Position numbers and translations under genes: made by a program
Shown: positions 20,063 to 32,611 of the stretch, one piece after another
Layout of the letters: each line of letters begins with the position of its first letter
Position numbering within the stretch: the first letter of the stretch is position 1
The notes under the pieces: model-generated
Database searches by the model: none
The model's input: the letters and a program-made list of their open reading frames with translations, nothing else
What the model was told of the DNA's origin: nothing
NCBI GenBank assembly: GCA_016218815.1
Contig: JACRCX010000028.1
Coordinates: forward strand, 1 to 64,000
Direction: 5' to 3'
Source: Deltaproteobacteria bacterium
Lineage (GTDB): Bacteria > Myxococcota_A > Polyangia > DRWM01 > JAAZOP01
DNA length: 64,000 bases

Positions 20063-21424
20063 ATGGCGAGCGGCGTACTCATTCCGGACCGGATGCGGGG
20101 CGAGCTGACCGATCGGGCGATCTCGGTGATCCACCGCCTGTCGGAGATGATCATCACGCTGGAGGCGCACTTCGACGGGCGCCTGGACCCGGACCGGCTG
20201 ACCCGCGCGGTGGAGCTGGTGCTCGACGCGGAGCCGGTACTCGGCTGCCGCTTCGTGTACGACCGCTGGCGCCCGTACTGGGAGCGCCTGCCGCTGCCGA
20301 TCAACGACGCGTTCCTGGTGGCCGCGGACGCCGCGTCGTTCGAGGCCTTCGCGTGTGAGCCGCTGGATCCCGGTCGCGGGCCGCAGCTCCTGGTCTGCCT
20401 GTGGCCGGCGCCGGAGGGCGACCGGCTGCTGGTAAAGGTCGGGCACTACGCCGCGGACGCGGGGGCCGTGAAGGAGGCGATCGAGCGGTTGGCGGAGACC
20501 TACCGGCGGCTGGCGACCGAGCCGGGATACGAGCCGGAGCCGAACGTGGGCGGCTCGCGGAGCATGGGCCAGGTGATGCGGCACATCCCCTGGAGCGCCC
20601 GGCCGAGGATCACGGGCAACTACCTGCGCGCGATGCGCGGCGTGGCGGGCGGTGCACCGCCGACCCGCTTCCCGTTGACGAGCGAGAGGAGGGAGGGGCC
20701 TCCGCGCTATGCGTTGCGTCACCTGGCGAGGGAACAGGTGGCGGCGGTGGCGGAGTACGGCCGGCGCCGCCAGGCGACGATCAACGACGTCGTGGTGACG
20801 GCCGTGCTGCGGGCGCTCTCCGTGCTGGCGGACCGCTCGCGGCCGACCGAGCTGCGGCTGCTCGTGACCGCCGACCTGAGGCGGCACCTGCCGGGCGGGC
20901 GGGGGGCCGGGCTGTGCAACATGAGCGGCATCGATCCGATGTCGCTCGGGGTGCCTCCCGACCTGGACGAGGGGTTCGACGGCCTGCTGGCGCGGGTGAC
21001 GAGGCACACGCGGGCGCGCAAGGCGTCGTGGATCGGCCTGAACGACTACGTCGCGATGCTGCCCGTGATCGGCTGGATGCCCATGTCCTGGCTGCACGGG
21101 TTCTTCGGCATGCTGATCCGCGCGACGAACCGTTGGCGGCGCATGCCCAACGGCCTGACGAACATGGGGCCGATCCGGCGGGAGACGGTGGATTTCGACG
21201 CGGCGCCGCGGAGGGCGTTCCTGCGTGTGCCGCCGACCTTTCCGCCGAACTTCGTCCTGGGGATGAGCGGGTACGGGGGAGAGCTGAGCTTGTCGGCGGG
21301 CTGGTACCCGGGGAGCGCGCCGGAGGCGCTGGTCGAGCGGTTCTTCGATCTGGTGGTGGAGGAGCTGAGGGGGGTGGAGGGCACGGAGGGGAGGAGAGGG
21401 CGAGGAGATCCGACTTGCCGCTGA
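20063..21424 (+). CDS. condensation/WS-DGAT-type acyltransferase
   Basis: A 453-residue cytoplasmic acyltransferase of the CoA-dependent condensation-domain superfamily. The expected HHxxxDG is here GHYAADA (about residue 140), keeping the second His and the Asp. The later TINDVVVTAVLRALSVL matches the conserved block of wax-ester/diacylglycerol acyltransferases and polyketide-associated Pap proteins. FDARLDPDRLTRAVELVLDAEPVLGCRF-like N-terminal structure is present in part (GRLDPDRLTRAVELVLDAEP). The ATG at 20063 has GGAGG four nt away; a TTG at 20027 is the only alternative. The last residues (EGRRGRGDPTCR) are encoded by a dispersed repeat. Substrates unknown. Confidence 0.75.
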   Translation: MASGVLIPDRMRGELTDRAISVIHRLSEMIITLEAHFDGRLDPDRLTRAVELVLDAEPVLGCRFVYDRWRPYWERLPLPINDAFLVAADAASFEAFACEPLDPGRGPQLLVCLWPAPEGDRLLVKVGHYAADAGAVKEAIERLAETYRRLATEPGYEPEPNVGGSRSMGQVMRHIPWSARPRITGNYLRAMRGVAGGAPPTRFPLTSERREGPPRYALRHLAREQVAAVAEYGRRRQATINDVVVTAVLRALSVLADRSRPTELRLLVTADLRRHLPGGRGAGLCNMSGIDPMSLGVPPDLDEGFDGLLARVTRHTRARKASWIGLNDYVAMLPVIGWMPMSWLHGFFGMLIRATNRWRRMPNGLTNMGPIRRETVDFDAAPRRAFLRVPPTFPPNFVLGMSGYGGELSLSAGWYPGSAPEALVERFFDLVVEELRGVEGTEGRRGRGDPTCR

Positions 21425-21432
21425 GACGTTGA
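21404..21432 (+). repeat. 29-nt dispersed repeat, copy 1
   Basis: The block beginning ggagatccgacttgccgct matches the reverse complement of 24467-24495 at 27 of 29 positions. It overlaps the end of the acyltransferase gene and provides its stop codon. The following stretch to 21696 (about 260 nt) shows no gene. Confidence 0.75.
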
Positions 21433-24414: not shown

Positions 24415-24560
24415 CAGGGGCCAAGAGCCAGAAACCAAAGTTTTCTCAGCGTTTGTCTCAGCGTCCTCAGCGTCTCAGCGGTAAGTCGGATCTCCGCGCC
24501 CTCTTCTCCCCTCCGCGCCCTCTTCTCCCCTCCGCCCCCTCCCCTCCCCTCCGCGCCCTC
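24415..24560. repeat. repeat cluster between lipoprotein and sigma factor genes
   Basis: Contains, in order: a ccaagagccagaaacc simple stretch; the 29-nt element at 24467-24495 (inverted match to 21404-21432); and a 19-nt tandem unit ctccgcgccctcttctccc present twice in full, with shorter C/T-rich copies to about 24560. No gene is seen in 24410-24602. Confidence 0.75.
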
Positions 24561-24576
24561 CCACGTCACACTTTGC

Positions 24577-24604
24577 TTGCACGCGGCCCCCAACCCGGTA
24601 CGAT
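24577..24604 (+). promoter_or_regulatory. possible promoter of ECF sigma factor gene
   Basis: TTGCAC, 16 nt, TACGAT. The -10 overlaps the ATG at 24603, so if this promoter is used, translation must start at the ATG at 24624 or 24630. Confidence 0.4.
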
Positions 24605-25172
24605 GGGCGCGACGGCATTGGCCATGGACATGGAACGGGACGGGGAGATCGCGGCGGCCATCCGCGATCGGACGCACCACCGGGCGCTGGCGATGATGAG
24701 TCGGGAGTTCGGCCCGGCCCTGGGCAGGTTCTGCACGGCGTTCCTCGGCAACTCGGCCGAGGCCGAGGAAGCCGCGCAGGATTCGCTCATCGAAGCGCTG
24801 CGGGCGATGCCCGGGTTTCGCGGGGAATCCGCCGTGAAGACGTGGCTCTTCGCCATCGCCAGGCGGATCTGCATCCGGCGCCGCAAGCGCCGGCAACACC
24901 GCGAGGCGCTCCTCCGCGTGGTGTCCGTGACCGACGTGCCTGCGCCCGACACTCCGCTGGACGAAGCCGCGCGCACCGAGCTGGTGCGCCGCCTGCAAGC
25001 CGCGGTGGCCTCGCTCCCCGAAGAGGAGCGCGAGGTCCTGGCACTGCGGTACCAGGCGGACCTCACCTACGAGGAAGCGGCCGAGGTGTGCGGCATCAAG
25101 CCCGACGCGGCGCGCAAGCGCGCCAGCCGGGCCTTCGCCGCCCTGCGCGAGAAGTTGGGAGGCCGGTCATGA
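24603..25172 (+). CDS. ECF-type RNA polymerase sigma factor
   Basis: A sigma-70 family extracytoplasmic-function factor of up to 189 residues. Region 2 is REFGPALGRFCTAFLGNSAE ... GFRGESAVKTWLFAIARRIC, and region 4 is SLPEEEREVLALRYQADLTY EEAAEVCG-type with a helix-turn-helix (AAEVCGIKPDAARKRASRAF). The start may be the ATG at 24603 or, more likely if the overlapping promoter is real, 24624. Its TGA overlaps the ATG of the next gene (ATGA). That gene has an N-terminal zinc anti-sigma motif, so the two form a sigma/anti-sigma pair. Confidence 0.92.
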   Translation: MGATALAMDMERDGEIAAAIRDRTHHRALAMMSREFGPALGRFCTAFLGNSAEAEEAAQDSLIEALRAMPGFRGESAVKTWLFAIARRICIRRRKRRQHREALLRVVSVTDVPAPDTPLDEAARTELVRRLQAAVASLPEEEREVLALRYQADLTYEEAAEVCGIKPDAARKRASRAFAALREKLGGRS

Positions 25173-28100
25173 GCGAAGCGCGATGCAAGGAAGTGGACGA
25201 TCGTCTGGCCGAGCTGGTCGACGGCGAGCCGGCGGCGGTGCAGGAGTTCTCGTCCCATCTGGCGACGTGCCGCGAGTGCGCCGCGAAGCTGGAAGGGGCG
25301 AAACGCACCGCGGCGTGGCTGCGGCGAGCGGTCGACGAAGTCTCGCCGAAGTCGCTGGAGGCCGACGCGATTTTTCGCCTGGCCCAGGAGCGCGCCAGGG
25401 CCCGCACCCGTCGCACCGCCGCCTGGATCGGCGGGGCCGCGGCCCTGGCCGCTTCCGTCGCCGCCGTCGTCTACTTCTCGATCGGGACGGGCGAGGGGAC
25501 GGACTCGCAGCCGCAGGGCCCGGCACCGGTCGCGGCGGCACACGACGCTGCGGCGCCACAGGCACCGGTGGAGCCCCAGGCCCCCTTGCCGAACGGCGTC
25601 CGGGCCCGGCTCGTCGCCGTGCTCGCGCCCGAAGGCGCCGCCGTCGAGGTGAAGACGGCGGATGGGTCGCAGAGCCTGGCCAAGGGTGCAGGACCGGTCG
25701 ACCTGCCGGCCGGCGCGACGGTGACCACCGACGCCCGGACCCTCGCCACCCTCACCATGTCCGACGGCACGACCCTGAGCCTGGACCGCGCGACGTCGCT
25801 CACCTTCGACCTGGACGACGAGGATCTGCTGCGGGTCGGGTCGGGACAGGTGCTGGCGGACGTGATTCCGCGCGAGGCGGGGCGTCCCAGGCTGCGCGTG
25901 GCGCTGCCCACGGGCGAGCTCAGCGTGCTGGGCACGAAGTTCTCGGTGCGGGCGGAGGACGACGAATCGCGGGTCGACGTGGCGCGCGGCGTGGTCGAGG
26001 TCCGCGGCGGCTCGGGTGAGCCGGTGCGGGCCGCGGCGGGCCAGGAGGCAGTGATCCCGCGCGAGGGCGTGCCGATCGTCGCGCAGGTCCGCGACCTCTC
26101 CGCTGTGCTGGCGTGGGCCGACGACCTGGACGAGGGCGAGAAGGCGCCGCGGGGACTGGGGTCGCTGTCCGCGAACCCGCCCGGGCGCCCGGAACGGCAG
26201 CGCGACCTCGACCTGGCCAGCCACAAGGTGACCGTGCGCATCCAAGGGCCGGTGGCGCGGACCGAGGTCGAAGAGGTCTTCCAGAACGACACCGGCGAGC
26301 GGCTGGAGGGCGTGTACAAGTTCCCGTTGCCGCCCGGCGCGTCGATCGCGCGCCTGGCGCTCGAGGTGAACGGCAAGCTGGAGGAGGGGGCGTTCGTCGA
26401 GTCCGAGCGCGCGACGCGCATCTGGCGCGGCGTGATCCGCCACGCGACGCCGCAGCCGGTACGCCGCCCGCACGAGGAGTACATCTGGGTGCCGGGACCG
26501 TGGCGCGACCCGGCGCTCCTGCAGTGGCAGAAGGGCAACGAGTTCGAGCTGCGCATCTTCCCCATCGAGCCGCACGCCTCGCGACGCGTGATCATCGCCT
26601 ACACCGAAGTGCTGCGCCCGGTGGGCACGCACCGCCGCTACGTCTATCCGCTGCCCTTCGACGAGGGCGGCTCGACGAAGTCCGGCGAGTTCTCCTTCGA
26701 CGCGCGCATCGGCGGCGCGGACGAGGGGACCAAGGTCCGCAGCCTGGGCTACGACGTCGCCGTCACCGTCAAGGACGGCGCGCCCGAGGCGACTTTTTCC
26801 AAGAGCGACTTCGCGCCCACCGGCGACCTGGTCCTCGACTACGCACTCCCGGCGAAAGAGGCCGGCCTCTCCGCCGTCACCTACAAGGCGGGTGAGGAGG
26901 AAGCGAGCGGACGAGCGGACGAGCGGACGAGCGGACGAGCGGATGAGGAGGGGGGCGACGCGGCGGGCTACGTCCTCCTCACGATCCGCCCCGATCTGCC
27001 GATCAAGGGCGATCCGAAGCCGCGCGACGTGCTCTACGTCATCGACTCGTCGTACTCGGCGTTCGGCGACCGTTACCAGTGGCAGGTGAAGCTGGTGCGG
27101 TCGATGATCGAGCAGATGGACCATCGCGACCGTTTCCAGGTGCTCGCGTGCGACCTCGACTGCACCGCCCTGTGGGACTCGTTCCAGGAGCCGACGGCGC
27201 GCAACGCGGAGGAGGCGTCGACGCGGCTCGGGCGGATCGAGCCCGGACAGGCGACCGACGTGGGCGCGGCGTTCGCGGCGGCGGCGCGCGAGATGCGCGA
27301 GCGCGGGAGCGGCGCGGGGGAGCGGGACGCGCGGATCGTGTACCTGGGCGACGGCGTGGCGTCCGCGGGCGAGCTCGACGCGGGACGGTTGGCCGTGGAG
27401 GCGCTGGGCGAGCTGGAAGGGGCGAGCGTCCGGGTGTCGACGATCGGCACGGGCGCCGAGGCCGACGAGCTGGTGCTTTCGACGCTGGCGCGTCGCGGCG
27501 GGGGCTCGTACTTCGCGTTCACGCCGGGCCGTTCCGTCCGTTCGCTGGCGCTGGCGGCCTTGTCGGCGCAGTACGGGGCCGCGCTGGAGGACGCGCAGCT
27601 CAGCCTGCCCGCGGGGCTCTCGGAGGCGCAGCCGCGGGACCTGCCTGCCGTGCGCGCCGGCGACGAGCTGATCGTCGTGGCACGGATGGACGACCACGTG
27701 CAGGGCGAGGTCGTGCTCAAGGGCAAGGTGGGCGGGGAAGACTACGAGCAGCGCTACCCGATCGACCTCGAGGTCACGAGCGCGAAAGGCAACTCCTTCG
27801 TGCCCCGGCTGTGGGCCGAGGCGAAGATCGCCGACCTGACGCTGGCGGACGCCGAGGCGAACAAGGACAAGATCGTCGAATTGTCCCAGGAGCACCGCGC
27901 GCTCTCGCGCTTCACGTCGCTGCTCGTGCTGGAGAGCGAGGCGATGTACGAGGCGTACGACATCGATCGTCCGGAGCTGGCCGAAGACTGGACCGGGGAG
28001 GAGGCGATCGCCGAGCAGAGCTTCGGCGGGGCGGTCGAGCACTCGCTGGCGGCCGGCGCGAGCGGCGGCGGTGGGGACGAGGGTGAGATGGACGCGCTGG

Positions 28101-29320
28101 ACGGCGCCGGCCGGGCGGGCGGACGAACGGCGCGCGCCTCGGGCCCGGCGCCGGCGGCCCCGGCGGTGGGAACGATCGTGCTCGACGCCGGCACGCCGCT
28201 CGAACGGCGAGTGCCGGACACCGGGGCCGATCGGGAGCGAGCGAGGGCGGAGGAGATGCCGGCCCCGCGGTCCGGCGGGCAGTGGATGCGGCGCACCTGG
28301 CAGCGTCGGGCGACCATCGAAGGGCCGGTCTCCGTGCGCAACTGGGAGGAGCGGCGGCTCGAGGAGCTGAAGACGGCGCTGGAGGAGAAGCCCGACTCCC
28401 GCGATCGCACCAAGGCGCTGTACCTGGCGCTGTCGCGGGCCGGGAAGATCGAGGAAGCGCTGGATCTGGCCGAGACGTGGTGGGCGAAGGACCGGCTGGA
28501 TCCGGAGGCGCTGGAGCGGATGGCGCTGTCGGAGCAGTCGCTGGGGCATGGCGGGCGCGCCTTGCGGCTCCTGGGCAGCATGGCGGACCTGCGCCCCAGG
28601 GACGTGGAGCTGCAGAAGCGGCTGGCCGGCGCGTACGAGGCGGCAGGAGAGTACTCCGACGCGTGCGCGCACCGCCGCGCGGTCGCCTCGATCGTGCCCG
28701 ACGACGCCGAAGCGGCGAAGGCGGCCTACCGCTGCCTGTCGTGGTTGGGGCGCAGCGAAAAGGCCGATTCGCTCATCGAGCGCTTCGGCAACGAGATGAC
28801 GCGCTCGCGACTGCGCTCGCAGCTCGACACGTCCGAGCCCGTGGCGCCGGACGTGCGCGGCGACCTGCGGATCGAGGCGAGCTGGGACGAGTCCGCGGAT
28901 CTCGACCTCGTCCTGGTGCACCCCGACGGCCGGCGGTCCTCCTGGACGGGCGGCGTGACCGGCACCATGGCGAAGTACGCCGACGACGACCGCCGCGAGA
29001 ACCTCGGCTTCCGCCGCCTCCAGACCGGTCTGTACCGCATCGAGATCGTGCGGCACGGCGCGGCGAAGGCGGTGGACGAGCCCGACGAGGCGAGCGACGA
29101 AGAAGGGGAGCGAGCGGTCGAGCGGTCGAGCGGTCGAGCGGTCACGGCGGAGGATGTGCGGGGCGAGGTGACCATCCGCGCGATGGGCACGACGCGCCGC
29201 CTGTCGTTCTCGCTGGGCGACGACGACGTCCGCGTGCCGGTCGCGTCGGTGGAGGTCGAGCGATTCGAGGTCATGGTCCCGGTCGACGGCCCGCCCGAAC
29301 CCACCCGCTGGATCGAGTAG
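25169..29320 (+). CDS. membrane anti-sigma/FecR/VIT/vWA multidomain protein
   Basis: A 1383-residue protein encoded directly after the sigma factor. Residues 30-37 (HLATCREC) form the HxxxCxxC zinc anti-sigma motif. One membrane span lies at about 83-105. Outside it come a FecR-like beta domain (about 150-290), a VIT domain (about 340-470, VEEVFQNDTGERLEGVYKFP), and a vWA domain from about 618 with the MIDAS motif DSSYS. TPR-like helices follow around 1075-1200. A DUF2135/YfaP-like domain (LRIEASWDESADLDLVLVHP) lies near 1230. Two linkers are encoded by 8-nt DNA repeats. The layout suggests a sensor whose extracytoplasmic vWA/VIT part signals to the sigma factor. Known families, unusual combination. 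Confidence 0.88.
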   Translation: MSEARCKEVDDRLAELVDGEPAAVQEFSSHLATCRECAAKLEGAKRTAAWLRRAVDEVSPKSLEADAIFRLAQERARARTRRTAAWIGGAAALAASVAAVVYFSIGTGEGTDSQPQGPAPVAAAHDAAAPQAPVEPQAPLPNGVRARLVAVLAPEGAAVEVKTADGSQSLAKGAGPVDLPAGATVTTDARTLATLTMSDGTTLSLDRATSLTFDLDDEDLLRVGSGQVLADVIPREAGRPRLRVALPTGELSVLGTKFSVRAEDDESRVDVARGVVEVRGGSGEPVRAAAGQEAVIPREGVPIVAQVRDLSAVLAWADDLDEGEKAPRGLGSLSANPPGRPERQRDLDLASHKVTVRIQGPVARTEVEEVFQNDTGERLEGVYKFPLPPGASIARLALEVNGKLEEGAFVESERATRIWRGVIRHATPQPVRRPHEEYIWVPGPWRDPALLQWQKGNEFELRIFPIEPHASRRVIIAYTEVLRPVGTHRRYVYPLPFDEGGSTKSGEFSFDARIGGADEGTKVRSLGYDVAVTVKDGAPEATFSKSDFAPTGDLVLDYALPAKEAGLSAVTYKAGEEEASGRADERTSGRADEEGGDAAGYVLLTIRPDLPIKGDPKPRDVLYVIDSSYSAFGDRYQWQVKLVRSMIEQMDHRDRFQVLACDLDCTALWDSFQEPTARNAEEASTRLGRIEPGQATDVGAAFAAAAREMRERGSGAGERDARIVYLGDGVASAGELDAGRLAVEALGELEGASVRVSTIGTGAEADELVLSTLARRGGGSYFAFTPGRSVRSLALAALSAQYGAALEDAQLSLPAGLSEAQPRDLPAVRAGDELIVVARMDDHVQGEVVLKGKVGGEDYEQRYPIDLEVTSAKGNSFVPRLWAEAKIADLTLADAEANKDKIVELSQEHRALSRFTSLLVLESEAMYEAYDIDRPELAEDWTGEEAIAEQSFGGAVEHSLAAGASGGGGDEGEMDALDGAGRAGGRTARASGPAPAAPAVGTIVLDAGTPLERRVPDTGADRERARAEEMPAPRSGGQWMRRTWQRRATIEGPVSVRNWEERRLEELKTALEEKPDSRDRTKALYLALSRAGKIEEALDLAETWWAKDRLDPEALERMALSEQSLGHGGRALRLLGSMADLRPRDVELQKRLAGAYEAAGEYSDACAHRRAVASIVPDDAEAAKAAYRCLSWLGRSEKADSLIERFGNEMTRSRLRSQLDTSEPVAPDVRGDLRIEASWDESADLDLVLVHPDGRRSSWTGGVTGTMAKYADDDRRENLGFRRLQTGLYRIEIVRHGAAKAVDEPDEASDEEGERAVERSSGRAVTAEDVRGEVTIRAMGTTRRLSFSLGDDDVRVPVASVEVERFEVMVPVDGPPEPTRWIE
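26905..26946. repeat. 8-nt tandem repeat (gagcggac) inside the vWA protein gene
   Basis: About five copies of gagcggac encode the octapeptide-like linker SGRADERTSGRADE just before the vWA domain. Eight is not a multiple of three, so copy-number change by one would shift the frame. Confidence 0.75.
29112..29142. repeat. 8-nt tandem repeat (gagcggtc) near the end of the vWA protein gene
   Basis: About four copies of gagcggtc encode RAVERSSGRAV, a second repeat-derived linker close to the C-terminal end. Confidence 0.7.
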
Positions 29321-29353
29321 CACGTCCCGCACTTCCTGCTTCGGAGGCCGGGA

Positions 29354-29398
29354 ACCGAATCTCGCGCAGAGACGCAGAGACGCAGAGACGCAGAGGGG
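29354..29398 (+). repeat. 30-nt dispersed repeat with 8-nt tandem (gcagagac)
   Basis: The block starting accgaatctcgcgcagaga matches the reverse complement of 62300-62329 at 29 of 30 positions and runs into further gcagagac units. It fills the gap after the vWA protein gene. Confidence 0.8.
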
Positions 29399-29468
29399 GA
29401 CGACTGGCCCGGCGGCGTGGCGGTCGGGGGGGCCCTCGTGCGACAATGCCCATCGCGAGGAGGCGGCC

Positions 29469-29939
29469 ATGTACCTGGACAAGAAGGCGGTGATCGTCGT
29501 GGGAGCGTTCGCGGCGGTCGTGATCGGACTGCTGGCGTGGAACATCGTCGCGACGGGGGGGGCGACGCGGGCCGCGGAGGAAGCGACGGCGGCCGTCGCG
29601 GCGACGACGAAGCAGTGCTCGACGTGCGGCGGGTCGCTGACGCGCAAGGACGTGGACGACGCGCTGGCGCAGCTCCGGAGCGACGTCGCGACCAACGTGG
29701 TCATGACGCGCGGCGTGCGCGACGACACGCTGGCCATCCGCTCGGCGCAGCCCGACCTCGAGCCGATCGTGCACTTCCTCCGCTTCTCGGACGCCTACAC
29801 GGAGATGCTGCTCGAGGAGCTGGCGCGGCGCGCGCGGGTCGACATCGGCGCCGCGCGCGCGGAGGTGGACAAGATGTTCGAGGGGCACGGGGGGAAGCCG
29901 GCGGGCTGGTTCTGGGGGCCCGTTCCCGCGTCGCCGTAG
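29469..29939 (+). CDS. single-span membrane protein, function unknown
   Basis: A 156-residue protein with an N-terminal membrane anchor (KAVIVVGAFAAVVIGLLAWN). A short Ala/Thr linker follows, then a CSTCGG pair and a helical domain (DVDDALAQLRSDVATNVVMT, EMLLEELARRARVDIGAARA). GAGGAGG lies 6 nt before the ATG. The CxxC could bind metal or be a redox pair, but no thioredoxin-like fold is evident. No family recognised. It is convergent with birA. Confidence 0.6.
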   Translation: MYLDKKAVIVVGAFAAVVIGLLAWNIVATGGATRAAEEATAAVAATTKQCSTCGGSLTRKDVDDALAQLRSDVATNVVMTRGVRDDTLAIRSAQPDLEPIVHFLRFSDAYTEMLLEELARRARVDIGAARAEVDKMFEGHGGKPAGWFWGPVPASP

Positions 29940-30787: not shown

Positions 30788-32611
30788 TCAGATGCCGGTG
30801 ATGTCGAGCTGGAAGGTGCCGCAGGCCGTCGCGTCGGCGCGGGCCTGGTCGACGAAGACGTAGTAGATGCCCTCGCCCAGCGACTGGGAGAGGCGGGAAG
30901 CGCCGGGCACGGAGCCGGTCGTACAGCTCGGATCGTTGTCGTTGCAGGCAATCTGGGAGGCGGAGGAGGTGCAATCCGTGCGGAGGTGGAGGACGGTGTC
31001 GGCGCCGAGGCCGAAGTTGCAGGTGGAGAGGGTGACGGTGCGGGTCTCGCCCAGTGCGAAGTAGTAGACTGCTTCGCCGCCGGCACCGCCGCAGCCGCCC
31101 GTGTACTCGTTGGAGAAGGTGCACGTCGAGCCGCTCGCCGACCAGGCGCCGGGGTCAATGCGGATCGGGCTGCCGCAGCGATCGCCGGCCGTGTCAGTGG
31201 GCGTGATGTAGACGTGGAGCGCGTACGGGCCGTAGGAGTAGGAGGAGTAGCCGTCGAGCGTGATGTAGTAGCGGCCAGGGGCGAGGGCGCGCGCGGACAC
31301 CGCCGAGGTGTTGACGAACGAGCCGGTCGGTCCGCCCACGGGGTTGACGTCGTCGTTGCAGCCGAGGGTCCCGCCGCCGCAGGTGGTGCCGAGGTACAAC
31401 ACCGAATCGAGGTAGTAGTCGCTGCCCACGGTGTTGATGAACACGTCGGACGTGACGCTCAGGTCGAAGTAGAAGTAGGCGTCCGGAGCCTCGTAGGGCG
31501 GCGTGACGGTGACGCAAGAGGCCGGCGGGAGGGTGTTGTTCACGTACCCCGTCGTGTCGCCGGTGAAAGTGCCGCCGCCGGAGACGTTGAGCGGCGAGGC
31601 GCAGGTGTCGTTGCTTCCCCCGCAGCCCTCGTCGGTCGCGCCGTCGCAGTCGTCGTCCACGCCGTTGGCGCACGTCTCGGCCGGGGGCGTGCAGGCCGAC
31701 GGGAGCGTGCAGGTGCCGGAGCAGGTCCGGGTGCCGGTGGTGCCGCAGGTCGTGGTGCAGCGGCTGGCCGAACCCGCGACGCAGGCAAAGCCGTTGTCGG
31801 GAAAGCCGTCGCAGTCGTCGTCCACGCCGTTGCAGGTCTCGTGCGGCGGGACGCACGCCCCGGGCACGCAAGTCGCGGAGCAGCTCGCGGTCCCGGTGCT
31901 GCCGCAGGTGGTGGTGCAGTAGTCGGTGCGGCCGGCGCAGCAGCCGAAGCCGTCGTCGCAGATCCAGTTGCAGTCGTCGTCGGCGCCGTTGCACGTCTCC
32001 GCCGGCGGGACGCAGATCTCGGGGGGCGGGAGGGCGCAGCCCGGCTGGCAGTAGCCCCAGCCGGAATTGCCGCAGATTGTCGTGCAGCCGACCGTCGAGC
32101 CGAGCAGGCAGGGGAAACCCTCATCGGTCGCGCCGTCGCAATCGTCGTCGCGCCCGTTGCACACCTCGGGCGGGCTCGGCACGCAGCCACCGTCCCCGTC
32201 CGCGTCCGCGTCCGCATCCGCGTCGGCATCCGCGTCGCCATCCGCATCCGCGTCGGCATCCGCGTCGCCATCCGCATCCGCGTCGGCATCCGCGTCGGCG
32301 TCGGCGTCCGCGTCGGCGTCCGCGTCGGCATCCGCGTCGGCGTCCGCGTCGGCATCCGCGGCGGCGTCCGCGGCGACATCCGCGTCGGCATCCGCGTCGG
32401 GGCCGTCAGGCGAGTGGTCGGCGGTCCCGTCGGTCGTGTCATCGCCGCCGTCGAGGTCCGGGACGCAGGCCCCGAGGAAGCAGGTGAAGCCCGGCTCGCA
32501 TCCGCCGGCGCAGTCCTCGGTGCCGCCGCCGCAGGCGGCGGCGGAGGCAAGAGTAAGCGCGACGACGATGGTTCCCGAGAGCATGGAGCAGCTTCTCGAT
32601 CCCGTTTGCAT
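30788..32611 (-). CDS. MopE-type lipoprotein with Asp-Ala tract
   Basis: A 607-residue lipoprotein (signal [15 protein letters not shown]). [17 protein letters not shown] Cys-rich motif is followed by an acidic Asp-Ala tract of about 70 residues. Four repeats of the type [18 protein letters not shown] come next, the putative metal-binding motif found in MopE and many myxobacterial proteins. The last 270 residues hold two PPC-like beta domains ([39 protein letters not shown]). GGAGG lies 6 nt before the ATG at 32611. It probably binds Ca2+ or Cu at the cell surface. It is inserted between nadC and birA, which otherwise tend to be neighbours. Confidence 0.82.
32197..32402. repeat. hexanucleotide repeat (gcgtcc/gcatcc) encoding Asp-Ala
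   Basis: About 200 nt of 6-nt units (gcgtcc, gcatcc, gcgtcg, gcatcg) in frame in the lipoprotein gene. In-frame gain or loss of units would vary the length of the Asp-Ala spacer without breaking the gene. Confidence 0.85.

Follow-up and report, generated by a model that had tools for sequence, protein, structure and literature searches.

A predicted two-gene ECF sigma factor switch with an inter-alpha-inhibitor-like periplasmic module in Polyangia-type myxobacteria

Class I zinc anti-sigma factors (ZAS/ASDI), such as RsiW, RsrA and ChrR, carry a Cys...HxxxCxxC set of residues in their head, are encoded by genes that adjoin and overlap the gene of their ECF sigma factor, and usually possess one membrane helix; they are small or have only short C-terminal domains. 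Large external sensing modules are found in RsgI of Clostridium thermocellum, a membrane anti-sigma factor of the SigI/RsgI system whose external modules sense polysaccharide; RseP cuts within its helix and ClpXP degrades its head (PMC12203970). The cell-surface signalling anti-sigma factors FecR and PupR have a FecR domain (6ovk) outside the membrane. On the other hand, the VIT-vWA core is known from the inter-alpha-inhibitor heavy chains ITIH1 and ITIH4 and from bacterial VIT-vWA proteins (TIGR03788 sortase targets), which are secreted or wall-attached and have no transcriptional head. Thus, large anti-sigma sensors, zinc heads and VIT-vWA proteins are each already known, whereas their union as an ECF regulator is undescribed in the literature searched, in which no report joined an anti-sigma factor with VIT or, in this sense, vWA, although the main ECF classification paper may mention it.

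In this study, we analyzed a gene pair in a 64,000-nt stretch of a Deltaproteobacteria bacterium genome (assembly GCA_016218815.1, contig JACRCX010000028.1, positions 1 to 64,000; hereafter the window). The locus resembles class I systems in its head and gene placement but adds a periplasmic part of approximately 1280 residues with FecR, VIT, vWA and TPR domains, and we consider it likely that the pair forms a membrane-held two-gene ECF switch, in which an ITIH-like periplasmic domain serves as input and the sigma factor is freed by proteolysis.

The first gene (24603..25172, plus strand) encodes a protein of 189 aa whose domain content was limited to Sigma70 regions 2 and 4, spanning some 190 aa (TIGR02937, 2.5e-28; Pfam Sigma70_r2 and Sigma70_r4). 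The second (25169..29320, plus strand) encodes the 1383-aa putative anti-sigma factor, and its start overlaps the sigma stop codon in an ATGA. The coordinates, reading frames and ATGA coupling given in a first-pass annotation of this DNA were exact on recheck, and the same profile matches bore out its identification of the ECF sigma factor. The entire 1383-aa frame was kept in relatives at 88%, 68% and approximately 40% identity, which excludes a chance open reading frame. An open frame of 1556 codons was also present antisense to the anti-sigma gene (25067-29737, minus strand), which is most likely an artefact of GC-rich codon bias.

Relatives were sought in one genome per GTDB species, and 80 of 129 loci were kept, all of them from Myxococcota-type or 'Deltaproteobacteria' records that included Sorangium cellulosum, Polyangium fumosum, Labilithrix and Sandaracinus. 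Among the 66 loci that came from named genomes and had 900 nt or more of upstream DNA, an ECF sigma gene lay directly 5' of the anti-sigma gene in 65, a proportion that describes the clade, since the search patterns were drawn from its VIT insertion. At the 66th locus (L098:6741-11507, a Polyangiaceae MAG), reading by eye placed sigma region 4 in frame with the zinc head in a single open reading frame that had lost most of sigma region 2, which makes it a natural sigma/anti-sigma fusion. A less biased whole-protein search of 59 related genomes gave a similar picture: the top-scoring relatives with upstream sequence had a sigma gene and the lower-scoring ones did not. Across 190 sampled genomes of the phylum, a match below 1e-80 was found in 32, and about 20 of these scored above 850 bits, in the range of the anti-sigma form (a split read off the score list rather than locus by locus). 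The ATGA overlap was possible at 32 of 69 loci, most others lying within a few bases. Distances of the sigma factor and the VIT-vWA core were correlated in a mirror-tree comparison (r = 0.62), which was not corrected for the species tree and was not used as evidence.

The two-gene arrangement is conserved across Polyangia-type myxobacteria. According to the first-pass annotation, its proposal that an ECF sigma gene is paired with an anti-sigma factor bearing a giant extracytoplasmic module would fall if the two genes were separated in relatives; such separation was seen at none of the 66 loci, and this part of the proposal is supported. Its description of the fusion as unusual holds for the literature searched but not for the clade, in which this arrangement is the rule. 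No third gene was conserved beside the pair across relatives within up to 8 kb; the real neighbours, a PP2C phosphatase and Fpg/MutM, were confined to subclades. Groups of apparently conserved upstream genes proved to be antisense frames within the anti-sigma gene and were rejected.

The N-terminal zinc anti-sigma domain comprised residues 1-57 (25169..25339, plus strand, as are all features below unless noted). Pfam gave only a weak zf-HC2 match below the cut-off (0.0028, residues 6-38). However, the head motif, an upstream C6 followed by H30xxxC34xxC37, was well preserved, each of the four residues being kept in at least 90% of an alignment of 38 relatives, and the family profile matched the solved anti-sigma factors RsiW (1.1e-7) and RsrA (0.0018). 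This conservation, together with the profile matches, secured the zinc head that had been read from the motif at first pass. AlphaFold2 modelled helices within residues 1-57 (pLDDT 92-98 for residues 1-50); when this small model was compared with PDB folds, no match was significant, and the profile search was used instead. HxxxCxxC was absent in about 12 of 66 relatives, which we counted against the switch model. No match to the RsgI model of the N-terminal domain was obtained for this head, which matched zf-HC2 and RsiW/RsrA and whose partner is an ECF sigma factor. The two systems are alike in outline but, by the tests applied, show no sequence relationship, and RsgI has no VIT-vWA.

Behind the head followed a single Ala-rich membrane helix with an Arg-rich stretch on its N-terminal side (residues 87-105, 25427..25483), in agreement with the one span noted previously, and a Pro/Ala-rich linker whose length varied among relatives (residues 106-183, 25484..25717). 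At least one hydrophobic span was detected in 65 of 70 relatives, and the five with none at the threshold used also counted against the switch model. The partner is predicted from its sequence to be an inner-membrane protein whose C-terminal part of approximately 1280 residues is periplasmic.

All four named domains of this part were backed by Pfam, as the first-pass annotation had proposed: FecR (residues 184-277, 25718..25999, 7.5e-14), VIT (residues 350-478, 26216..26602, 1.7e-15), vWA (residues 620-784, 27026..27520, 1.1e-9) and TPR (residues 1062-1207, 28352..28789, 1.5e-5, also seen in the AlphaFold2 model). Its assignment of the C-terminus as DUF2135-like was dropped, Pfam being empty there both in the 1383-aa protein and in 7 relatives; this region (approximately residues 1233-1371, 28865..29281) was modelled by AlphaFold2 as all-beta strands, and none of the searches assigned it to a family. 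AlphaFold2 folded the periplasmic part as one well-ordered unit (pLDDT 82.6, pTM 0.83), and the VIT-vWA core was the most conserved part of the protein. By sequence, the closest solved relatives were ITIH heavy chains (ITIH4, 1.4e-30; ITIH1, 1.8e-19), and the top fold match of the periplasmic model was ITIH1 (E 2.4e-23 over 627 columns). The match to TIGR03788 was far under the cut-off of that family (129 versus 551.65 bits).

Within an otherwise confident model, a long loop between the vWA core and the TPR region was predicted to be disordered (residues 959-1035, 28043..28273, pLDDT <50). In ITIH4, such a disordered loop is the bait region that is cut by a protease. By the same mechanism, a foreign or misdirected protease might cut the loop of the window protein and so trigger sigma release. 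The kinship with ITIH heavy chains and the length of the loop (approximately 77 residues) agree with protease sensing, but the loop is poorly conserved in sequence, flexible linkers are common and no cut site was identified, so we regard this reading as quite unlikely.

The MIDAS of the vWA domain was intact in the window protein, as had been claimed (D626-x-S628-x-S630, T696 and D728). Across 82 relatives, D626 was present in all, T or S at 696 in all, D728 in 80, and S628 and S630 in 73 each; the nine without S628 and the nine without S630 counted against the switch model. C661 and C665 were invariant (82 of 82), in keeping with an oxidising compartment. The residues of a putative metal-dependent ligand site are in place. 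The earlier label of an adhesion-type module has these residues as its sole basis. Direct sensing of surface contact by an exposed adhesion module, as the first-pass annotation had suggested, would fit the intact MIDAS, and in Bdellovibrio, another predator, a lipobox-bearing vWA protein with a MIDAS acts as an adhesin (PMC11003981). However, the predicted topology places the N-terminus inside and the C-terminal part in the periplasm, with neither outer-membrane passage predicted nor a surface-display signal, and contact sensing appears highly improbable.

The same FecR-VIT-vWA(-TPR) order occurred in lipoproteins from many genomes of the same class of Myxococcota (L019-L021, L023-L036 and L038), which are sister or ancestral to the anti-sigma clade. 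These proteins carry a lipobox instead of the zinc head and helix, have no sigma gene 5' of them, and lack the VIT insertion (xxWVPGPW) that marks the anti-sigma clade; in the window protein this insertion comprises residues 430-445 (EEYIWVPGPW, 26456..26503). Trees were built from the VIT-vWA core with the insertion columns removed and were rooted with VIT paralogues of the same genome. The genome of the window has seven further VIT-domain genes, distant paralogues on contigs C44, C7, C26, C49, C121, C13 and C64. The anti-sigma forms made up one clade with an SH-aLRT of 100 in the 108-row tree; this tree included 11 contig-end loci and L022 among the anti-sigma forms, their upstream DNA being unseen or without a sigma gene. 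In the 49-row tree the clade received 100/100 and was present in 100% of bootstrap trees. Since the anti-sigma forms are one clade and lipoproteins with the same module branch outside it, the change probably took place as a single conversion, in which the lipoprotein signal peptide was swapped for an anti-sigma head adjacent to a sigma gene. L022, which belongs to the clade by the tree and has kept the VIT insertion, lacked a zinc head, and a sigma gene was not found nearby; this is a probable secondary loss of the regulatory head.

The lipoproteins also bear on the role of the FecR domain. This domain is real, as the first-pass annotation had stated, and it aligned with the anti-sigma signalling domain of PupR and with BDI_1681, which would suit a FecIRA-type system, in which the signalling domain of a TonB-dependent receptor would contact FecR as the actual sensor and the VIT-vWA part would be accessory. 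However, FecR is shared by lipoprotein relatives that have no sigma genes, so that it came with the lipoprotein module and is older than the head, and no receptor or other gene is conserved within up to 8 kb as a third partner of the pair. Thus, the FecR domain does not imply a TonB system of the FecIRA type here. The canonical zinc head also sets the protein apart from FecR/PupR. With the VIT-vWA core being the best conserved part as well, we consider FecIRA-type signalling unlikely.

Under the switch model that we favor, the zinc head of the co-translated partner would sequester the sigma factor in the cytoplasm, as family match and linkage suggest, and one helix is predicted to anchor the partner in the inner membrane. 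The ITIH-like VIT-vWA platform with its MIDAS, flanked by FecR, TPR and the beta domain, would bind a periplasmic ligand, client or protease. By analogy with RsiW and RsgI, engagement would most likely make the linker accessible to proteolysis, a site-2 protease of the M50 type would cut the helix, and degradation of the head would free the sigma factor. The Ala-rich helix resembles the XAA sites described for RsgI, which is an analogy; M50 proteases were present in all 14 control genomes, and their presence therefore proves nothing. Once free, the sigma factor would drive transcription of its own operon through a promoter of the GTCAC type, for which the motif evidence comes from relatives rather than from this genome, and in some genomes it may also transcribe a few genes for exported proteins. 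In evolutionary terms, a FecR-VIT-vWA-TPR lipoprotein would, on a single occasion, have had its signal peptide replaced by an anti-sigma head, next to a sigma gene. As a tentative extension, which we consider less probable than not, the partner may be a probe derived from a structural lipoprotein, that is, an inner-membrane copy of the cell's own ITIH-like module, in which metal-dependent ligand binding by the MIDAS or cleavage of a bait loop directly releases the sigma factor, so that the cell is informed of whatever client or attacker the lipoprotein family meets.

If the switch model is true, the best known bacterial envelope switch, the ECF sigma/anti-sigma pair, gains an input module in common with human inter-alpha-inhibitor heavy chains, and does so across Polyangia-type myxobacteria, including the cultured Sorangium and Polyangium. 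It would also provide a clear case of the birth of a new signalling protein by one domain swap, from lipoprotein to transcriptional sensor. With a predicted promoter and an intact MIDAS, both output and input are directly testable.

Analysis of the upstream regions revealed a bipartite motif, GGTCACRAA-N15-CACnTG, 5' of most sigma genes in the clade. In 44 of the 70 regions examined 5' of sigma genes, its two halves were separated by one constant distance, compared with at most 7 at any other spacing and 0-2 in shuffles. The geometry was that of a -35/-10 pair (GTCACG-N17-CACATG), which makes it likely that the sigma factor autoregulates its own operon, a reading taken from the motif in relatives and not from the genome of the window. 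In the window, a conserved element starting with GTCACA (24565..24593) occupied the place of the -35-like half; it was shared with two genomes of the same genus and was almost unique in each genome. The -10-like half (CACnTG) was unrecognisable in the three genomes of this genus, and we counted this against the switch model. The weakest sigma profile matches, those of a Labilithrix-like group (E 1e-12 to 1e-20), were also without the motif, as would be expected if sigma factor and promoter had co-diverged.

In two Sorangium genomes (14.6-14.8 Mb), the sole exact site was that of the sigma gene itself. This fits a different role for the protein, namely that of an effector or scaffold for adhesion or envelope organisation, whose sigma head merely times its own expression in a homeostatic autoregulatory loop; the descent from a lipoprotein without a regulatory head points the same way. 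On the other hand, four further exact sites were found in other genomes, three of which, in three genomes, lay 35-38 nt upstream of genes for exported proteins, and two of these proteins were orthologous. The latter (L130:629-1495 and L131:1538-2362) shared 46% identity and had no Pfam match, and the exact motif stood 35-37 nt upstream of their start codons; among eleven genomes searched, orthologues were found only in two Kofleriaceae genomes. The fourth site (L126) lay inside a coding gene, glycogen-phosphorylase-like as identified by eye, and was discarded. We therefore judge the effector role to be somewhat unlikely and retain the switch with a periplasmic input as the preferred reading.

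A large regulon inferred from one-mismatch sites was rejected, as the counts in Sorangium were near those of a reversed-pattern control (11 versus 9). Such sites were clearly above the control only in some genomes, most of all in G064 (23 versus 3) and G062 (17 versus 4). In G064, the genome of locus L063, several of them preceded lipoprotein genes (L161, L165 and L166), which is a plain listing with no enrichment claimed.

Some other features of the window were also observed. A tandem 19-nt pyrimidine-rich unit was located just 5' of the sigma gene (24492-24560), and the stretch 24467-24519 had an inverted copy at 21380-21432 (53 nt, 91%), which resembles an interspersed repeat. Downstream, positions 30788-32611 (minus strand) encode a protein of 607 aa that contains an extended Asp-Ala repeat together with Cys-rich metal-binding motifs of the MopE type (Pfam Cu-binding_MopE, 2.1e-9).
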